This document shows, in pieces, positions 36,228 through 36,599 of a DNA stretch of 64,000 nucleotides (the first letter of the stretch is position 1; the number at the start of each line of letters is the position of its first letter). The translations under genes were made by a program, and so were the position numbers. Origin of the DNA: Agrococcus sp. Marseille-P2731 (lineage in GTDB: Bacteria > Actinomycetota > Actinomycetes > Actinomycetales > Microbacteriaceae); the NCBI RefSeq assembly GCF_900117395.1, contig NZ_FPEG01000003.1, positions 186,001 to 250,000 on the forward strand, in the 5' to 3' direction. The notes under the pieces were generated by a model. The model worked only from the letters and a program-made list of their open reading frames with translations. It had not been told where the DNA came from and did no database searches.

Positions 36228-36427
36228 GGGTGGCGCCCTCCAGCGCCGAGTGGCGCCTCCCGGCGTTGAGTGGCGCCTCCCAGCGCTGACTGGCGACTCC
36301 CGGCGCCGAGTGACGCCTCCCAGCGCTGACTGGCGGCTCCCAGCGCTGACTGGGGCCTCCCGGCGCCGAGTGACGCCTCCCAGCGCCGAGTGGCGCCTCC
36401 CAGCGCTGACTGGCGCCTCGGGCGCGC
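36228..36427. repeat. Left array: ten 20-bp direct repeats
   Basis: Ten contiguous units with an exact 20-base period and no spacers. The commonest form is GAGTGGCGCCTCCCAGCGCT. Two variable blocks change together: units ending CGCT are followed by GACTGG, and units ending CGCC or CGTT by GAGTG. The units contain GGCGCC, so neighbouring units can form hairpins. The array lies just upstream of the rmlB promoter. The sequence is the reverse complement of the array at 36461-36599. Confidence 0.9.
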
Positions 36428-36460
36428 AGGGATGCCGCGCCAGCGGCAGATGTGGAGGGC

Positions 36461-36599
36461 GCCACTCATACGCGCGAAGCGCCACTCACACGCGCGAAGC
36501 GCCACTCACACGCGGGAAGCGCCACTCAGGCGCCGGAGGCGCCACTCAGGCGCGCGAAGCGCCACTCAGGCGCCGGAGGCGCCAGTCGGGGCGCGGTCA
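36461..36599. repeat. Right array: seven 20-bp repeats, inverted relative to the left array
   Basis: Six full units and one degenerate unit (36581-36599) with a 20-base period, for example GCCACTCAGGCGCCGGAGGC. On the minus strand the phased unit is TGAGTGGCGCCTCCGGCGCC. It matches the left-array unit except for one inserted C and one extra T. The last unit contains the galU stop codon (36597-36599). The 33 bases between the arrays (36428-36460) are non-repetitive. Confidence 0.9.

Follow-up and report, generated by a model that had tools for sequence, protein, structure and literature searches.

Introduction

Dispersed palindromes are common in bacterial genomes, and the partner gene documented for them in the available text of two sources is the RAYT (PMC3116915; PMC3733652). 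In the accessible part of the first of these, REPINs are described as inverted REP doublets tied to RAYTs, and tandem arrays of REPs are found to occur as well (PMC3116915). According to the available part of the other, most REPs are located between codirectional or convergent genes, frequently close to a 3′ end; in TIRtrons, a Y1 gene (TIRYT) has inverted repeats on either side, and these repeats can make up a family (PMC3733652). A further source, the available text of which does not mention repeats, named MTES_1575 as a Vsr-like domain within a large fusion protein with HEPN (PMC3710099).

The locus studied here lies in the window, that is, the whole stretch of 64,000 nucleotides of Agrococcus sp. 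Marseille-P2731 DNA that was analysed, and consists of two arrays of 20-bp units facing each other between galU and rmlB. Its likeness to REPIN-RAYT systems and REPtrons, as far as these are described in the available text, lies in dispersed intergenic inverted pairs, often near the 3′ ends of genes, which are tied to one flanked gene. The proposed partner gene of the Agrococcus arrays is also flanked by its own repeats (arrays or matched palindromes), but it is REase-like and belongs to a different enzyme class; in addition, the Agrococcus core carries neither the GTAG nor the CGTC tag, and the Agrococcus arms are tandem 20-bp arrays. TIRtrons and TIRYTs, in the part of their description available, share with it a gene flanked by inverted repeats able to form dispersed families, whereas TIRYTs are tyrosine (HUH) enzymes and the Agrococcus gene is MTES_1575/DUF559-like. 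The CGTC-tagged REPs are alike in being dispersed palindromes, described without a RAYT in the available text (PMC3733652), but the Agrococcus arrays lack this tag and a partner gene is proposed for them. The Vsr-type MTES_1575 domain, as given in the accessible part of its source (PMC3710099), is of the family to which the partner protein described below shows a weak match.

A literature search covering little of the subscription literature found neither these repeats nor a pairing of an REase with repeats. The mycobacterial MIRU/VNTR loci are tandem repeats dispersed in intergenic gaps like the Agrococcus arrays, with larger units; to our knowledge, they have neither convergent pairing nor a partner nuclease.

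Results and Discussion

Two convergent arrays between galU and rmlB

The gap between galU and rmlB, both of which are on the − strand, spans 409 bp (36188–36596) and contains ten + strand units facing seven − strand units of 20 bp each (Table 1). These two inverted arrays had been described in an earlier sequence-only reading and were recovered by TRF (36230–36419, period 20, 9.5 copies; 36459–36595, period 20, 6.9 copies) and by reading the units, which also established that the linked variant blocks noted in the left units are real; single core changes were seen in some of the left-array units. The non-repeat spacer, put at 33 bases in that reading, measures 22 bases if every degenerate unit is included and 39 between the array limits given by TRF. 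The right array had been described as ending inside the galU stop codon (36597–36599), and was found to stop 8 bases short of it. The left array, which had been placed just upstream of the rmlB promoter, was recounted to start 39 bases upstream of the rmlB start codon. The array pair sits between galU and the hexamer TACGCT before rmlB, a possible −10 element of a leaderless rmlB promoter; a promoter scan returned no sigma-70-type site.

Table 1. Features of the galU–rmlB gap and its neighbours (positions in the window).
Feature	Position	Strand	Remarks
Left array	36227..36426	+	Ten 20-bp units; core GA[GC]TGGCG; units directed at the spacer
Spacer	36427..36448	.	Inverted repeat GCCGC-GCCA-GCGGC at 36434-36447; read directly
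Right array	36449..36588	-	Seven 20-bp units; core as in the left array, on the opposite strand; 8 bases from the galU stop codon
galU	36597..37490	-	Upstream neighbour; stop codon 36597-36599; name taken from the sequence-only reading; homologue present in 23 of 24 Agrococcus genomes
rmlB	35189..36187	-	Downstream neighbour; start codon 36185-36187; name taken from the sequence-only reading
TACGCT	36195..36200	-	Ends seven bases before the rmlB start; present in 4 of 5 relatives with an empty site, TAGGCT in the fifth

The RNA of the gap was predicted to fold into one long hairpin of −293.8 kcal/mol, against a mean of −234.9 for 100 shuffles (z = −9.5), and the right array alone gave a predicted z of −2.1. 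The long cruciform or hairpin suggested earlier is kept only as this folding prediction for RNA. A T-tailed intrinsic terminator was not found between positions 36100 and 36700. No Rfam family matched the gap, and a known RNA family was rejected for the arrays as the sole RNA match in the window is a tRNA. This tRNA-Gln (ttg) at 29358–29429 is ordinary and is the only RNA gene of the window. A CRISPR array was also rejected, the units being contiguous without unique spacers.

The arrays belong to a dispersed family with a convergent orientation

When the Marseille-P2731 genome was searched with a two-unit pattern at up to 3 mismatches, 174 matches were obtained against 28 for the reversed control, and a three-unit pattern at the same limit gave 139 against 0; the arrays occur far beyond chance. 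The matches listed fall into at least 11 array places on three contigs, to which degenerate places may add more. Searching related genomes with the unit, a check that the sequence-only reading had named, found many Agrococcus genomes positive; among the 60 relatives searched, large counts were confined to this genus, and other genera gave 0–4 matches, like the controls. The named genome collection contained 59 stretches matching the three-unit pattern exactly, a count from which records of the Marseille-P2731 genome itself were possibly excluded, and 54 of them were in seven Agrococcus assemblies. The five others (L080, L085, L086, L093 and L101), from a Methylococcaceae MAG, Streptomyces, Nocardia, a Proteobacteria MAG and a Saccharothrix MAG, are possibly unrelated repeats.

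The consensus sequences of 96 arms (842 units, seven genomes) were invariant at positions 3 and 5–9, had G at position 4 in 98% and varied at positions 17–20, the core being GAGTGGCG or GASYGGYCA-like at the loci read. The 64 Agrococcus loci, with five other loci left out, contained 70 clusters, of which 42 had two arrays and 28 were single; for some of the single arrays a contig end cuts the cluster or the partner array lies more than 400 bp off. The two-array clusters were convergent in 39 of 42 cases, two of the remaining being one stretch on both strands and one being tandem. With this orientation and the predicted fold of the gap RNA, the two-array clusters share with REPINs an arrangement of inverted pairs that can form hairpins.

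At the variable positions, units within an arm were more alike (0.669) than units between the arms of one locus (0.491), and likeness at lag 2 (0.709) was higher than at lag 1 (0.680). The two arms of the same locus were less alike than re-paired arms (0.491 versus 0.519, sd 0.010; 34 pairs, the observed value being equalled or exceeded in 99.85% of 2000 shuffles). Selection keeping the arms alike for a hairpin is not supported by this result.

Presence and absence of arrays at orthologous sites

Five relatives have galU adjoining rmlB, and their gaps are array-free and measure 54 (G002), 52 (G005), 54 (G010), 49 (G011, at a second galU) and 23 bp (G018). Three of them (G005, G010 and G011) have the empty site yet many array matches elsewhere. 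Because the gaps of these relatives are only 23–54 bp and without an array, about 355 bp was gained at galU–rmlB in the Marseille-P2731 lineage or lost in the relatives, and we infer a gain rather than repeated loss. The empty sites are too diverged for the junction to be placed to the base or for a target-site duplication, such as classical MITEs and IS elements leave, to be defined. An array controlling rhamnose synthesis, as had been offered by the sequence-only reading, is not supported as a locus-specific role because arrays occur at ten or more other places in the same genome and these five relatives have empty sites.

A second array locus of the Marseille-P2731 genome has one neighbour gene in 21 genomes and both neighbours in seven. 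Arrays are present there in this genome and in G019, and apparently also in G001, where a periodic signal was seen (gap of 221 bp); G004 and G007 have gaps of 54–55 bp without arrays, and none was detected in the longer gaps of G016 and G022. For six of ten array stretches of the genome, the loci fetched included one or more from another species with arrays at the orthologous place.

An REase-like gene at the polA locus is associated with the arrays

At C2:448255–449727 of the Marseille-P2731 genome, a gene of 296 amino acids lies between two convergent arrays, and four of the loci fetched from other species are orthologous to it, with both gene and arrays. The gene order, running from polA through a thioesterase-like gene, array, REase and array to a response-regulator-like gene, is kept wherever the contigs of relatives allow a check, the names thioesterase-like and response-regulator-like being our own reading of the sequences. 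The protein matched the Pfam family DUF559 with 21.8 bits (cut-off 20.6) and MTES_1575 (REase_MTES_1575) with 24.4 bits, below the cut-off of 38.2; of the further homologues, five of six were above the DUF559 cut-off and all those tested were below 38.2 for MTES_1575. Each of the residues E192, D224, E235, H241 and D250 is shared by 22 or more of 23 homologues, and we take them to be the pattern of a Vsr-like nuclease. The protein at the polA locus is regarded here as having a probable Vsr-like REase fold and as a putative nuclease.

Searches of NCBIfam and of PDB sequences with the partner protein returned no match, and no relative of it was found on viral contigs. Its AlphaFold model from four sequences was poor (pLDDT 55.9, pTM 0.47), and therefore the PDB fold search (best E 0.72) was not used. 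A defence system was considered and rejected, the PADLOC matches being weak (E 0.003 and 0.006) and NCBIfam and PDB sequence searches giving none. A search with PF01797 for the Y1 gene of RAYT type gave no match in any of the 24 Agrococcus genomes, compared with 5 positives among 14 named control genomes, and mobilisation by a RAYT/Y1 protein was rejected. Two further REase homologues of the Marseille-P2731 genome, at C1:1267257–1268048 (40%, one stop) and C3:650850–651728 (34%), lack flanks that clearly match, scoring 27 and 21.

The REase gene of the polA locus is present in 19 of 24 genomes, and each of these 19 carries arrays belonging to either of two dialects. Away from REase genes, 18 of these 19 keep at least 10 matches and G018 has only 2. 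Judged by a period score, 12 of the 15 closest orthologs have clear arrays to the left and right of the gene; the remaining three are contig-cut (G014) or degenerate (G017 and G007). In the five other genomes (G002, G003, G009, G012 and G015), the neighbour genes adjoin with neither the REase gene nor arrays between them, and genome-wide matches number 0–2. The gene is missing from G002 though this genome is otherwise close to that of Marseille-P2731 (GalU 88%); G009 is 65% complete and has REase homologues of 46–53% elsewhere. In G006 (C1:216615–217501) the gene is split by a stop, giving two overlapping matches, and 68 array matches are found elsewhere in that genome, where arrays of the dialect of this gene persist. 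As the 24 genomes share descent, the 19 and the 5 are not independent trials of the association. The suggestion of a mobile or recombinational repeat, also made by the sequence-only reading, is supported by the dispersed family, by presence and absence at orthologous sites and by this tie to one gene family.

The dialects were compared using two patterns at different limits, 2 and 1 mismatches. In 16 of 18 genomes, the dialect found next to the gene was also the commoner one elsewhere, the exceptions being G016 and G020. Two unit dialects coexist in these two genomes, where the majority elsewhere differs from the dialect beside the gene, and also in G014. On the protein tree, with 21 unit strings entered by hand, the dialects required 6 changes compared with 9.3 when shuffled, and a number as low was reached in 2 of 200 shuffles; for single dialects, shuffles were as low in 4 of 500 (GGCG), 26 of 500 (GGTC) and 114 of 500 (GGCC, which is unclustered). 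Different units were found beside each of the paralogues at different loci in G021, G023 and G008.

Possible origins of the galU–rmlB arrays

The explanation that we favour, and consider somewhat probable, is that the galU–rmlB arrays are a non-autonomous copy of a dispersed Agrococcus family in which units converge on a spacer from both sides, and that the REase-fold protein of the polA locus is the private partner of this family, in a manner similar to REPINs and RAYTs. The REase-like protein would recognise the GAnTGG-type core and would nick or cut the unit as a duplex, a cruciform or a single-stranded hairpin, after which repair would copy units between sites. By such copying, pairs would spread to new intergenic gaps, arrays would lengthen in tandem and one dialect would come to be held per genome. 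Cutting followed by repair copying would explain the dispersal, the tandem growth, the inverted pairs and the shared dialects. At the galU–rmlB copy, the transcript would form a very long hairpin, which may separate galU transcription from that of rmlB. What was observed, and speaks for this explanation, is the dispersed family with its convergent pairs, the empty sites, the association of gene and arrays, the agreement of dialects, the units particular to paralogues, the conserved residues and the matched flanks and dispersed palindromes of distant homologues described below; we infer the recognition, cutting and copying or mobilisation by the REase-like protein and any effect on galU or rmlB. 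Counting against it are the few matches of G018 away from the gene, the deviating dialects of G016 and G020, the split gene of G006, the degenerate arrays of G007 and G017, the unclustered GGCC dialect, the weak Pfam matches and the distant homologues whose own flanks are not best partners. The lower likeness of arms at the same locus is not predicted by simple hairpin copying, and would be explained if very long perfect palindromes are avoided. With the REPIN-like layout, the lack of a Y1 match and the REase-like partner, the Agrococcus system is therefore placed as a variant of the known gene–repeat pairs.

Convergent arrays might instead be kept by the host as transcription insulators, very large hairpins that follow stop codons and act in both directions to end transcription or to protect 3′ ends, with the REase gene merely located in such a gap. 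Many arrays start within tens of bases of a stop codon, and the 36 convergent pairs with both neighbours called (by a custom codon-position caller) lie between convergent genes in 17, codirectional genes in 17 and divergent genes in 2 cases, versus 12, 126 and 57 for 195 array-free gaps of at least 30 bp. The predicted fold of the gap RNA and the six of ten stretches whose orthologous place is occupied by arrays in another species also fit this account. It is nevertheless unlikely, considering the absence of a T-tailed terminator from 36100–36700, the relatives with empty sites and the five genomes that are practically array-free; moreover, a hairpin alone does not need a near-invariant core (six of the seven positions 3–9 in the arm consensuses), the arms match each other no more than re-paired arms do, and the association with the gene is left unexplained. 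An insulator role at galU–rmlB itself could be a side effect of the repeat family.

If the arrays were bound by a regulatory or chromosome-organising protein, which might be the REase-like protein binding without cutting, and if unit orientation set the polarity, a near-invariant GAGTGGCG core with a variable remainder, a 20-bp spacing with convergent polarity and the finding of arrays only where the REase gene is present would be accounted for. But array positions differ between species, the presumed nuclease residues are conserved and the palindromes of distant relatives occur singly, not as arrays, and we regard such a role as quite improbable. That the arrays are passive tandem repeats, grown by slippage from short terminator hairpins, spread by rare recombination and unrelated to the REase gene, agrees with the higher likeness within arms than between them and at lag 2 than at lag 1, as local duplication gives. 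This origin is highly improbable given one core common to loci and species, the convergent orientation, a distribution that follows the gene and units specific to paralogues. The non-autonomous family with its REase-fold partner remains our preferred reading.

Homologues beyond the polA locus and beyond Agrococcus

Homologues of the REase (E ≤ 1e-20) were found in 97 of the 150 genomes of the family that were searched. At 39 distant loci (identity of 45% or less; 28 from other genera and 11 Agrococcus paralogues), the best partner of the left flank was its own right flank in 27 cases and was not in 12. The flank scores of 23 of these 39 loci were above the 99% level of cross-locus pairs, and 21 of 39 scored at least 35, versus 4 of 115 control genes, all controls being from Agrococcus. 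In the group with 46–60% identity, 15 of 18 loci scored at least 35; the own partner ranked first in only 5 of 18, because loci in this group share dialects or place, and no own pair (0 of 18) exceeded the cross-locus 99% level. In 18 loci that were read, most of the matched stretches fold as long palindromes, different gene by gene.

In G030, the core of such a gene-flanking palindrome was matched 42 times, against 1 for the reversed control; the matches fall at about 27 places, of which two adjoin the gene and about 25 are further away. G120 had 10 matches, located at the gene and at four other places. G122 had 1 match and 17 other genomes had none, as expected because the pattern was drawn from G030 and G120. 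Of the stretches matched by the pattern, eight were read, three of which adjoin a gene of this kind and five do not; all fold as palindromes and none was inside a called gene. Extended 20-bp arrays were not detected by TRF beside the 28 homologues in other genera, many of which have matched palindromes in their place, L228 having other tandem repeats.

We would give about an even chance to the wider proposal that a large family of Vsr-like REase genes of the Microbacteriaceae are the masters of private palindromes, each gene being flanked by its own palindrome and dispersing it by cut-and-repair, that in Agrococcus these palindromes have grown into convergent 20-bp arrays in species dialects, and that the whole is a second, independently evolved counterpart of RAYT and REPIN. 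If a partnership with an REase fold is true, gene–repeat pairs arose more than once, the uncharacterised gene family of these 97 genomes would have a testable role, and the dialects would be a natural series in which protein and site diverge together. Separately, the string GACACGCCG was observed within or adjoining the repeats that flank several REase homologues (L178, L188, L190, L243, L254 and L262), one of which is in another genus.
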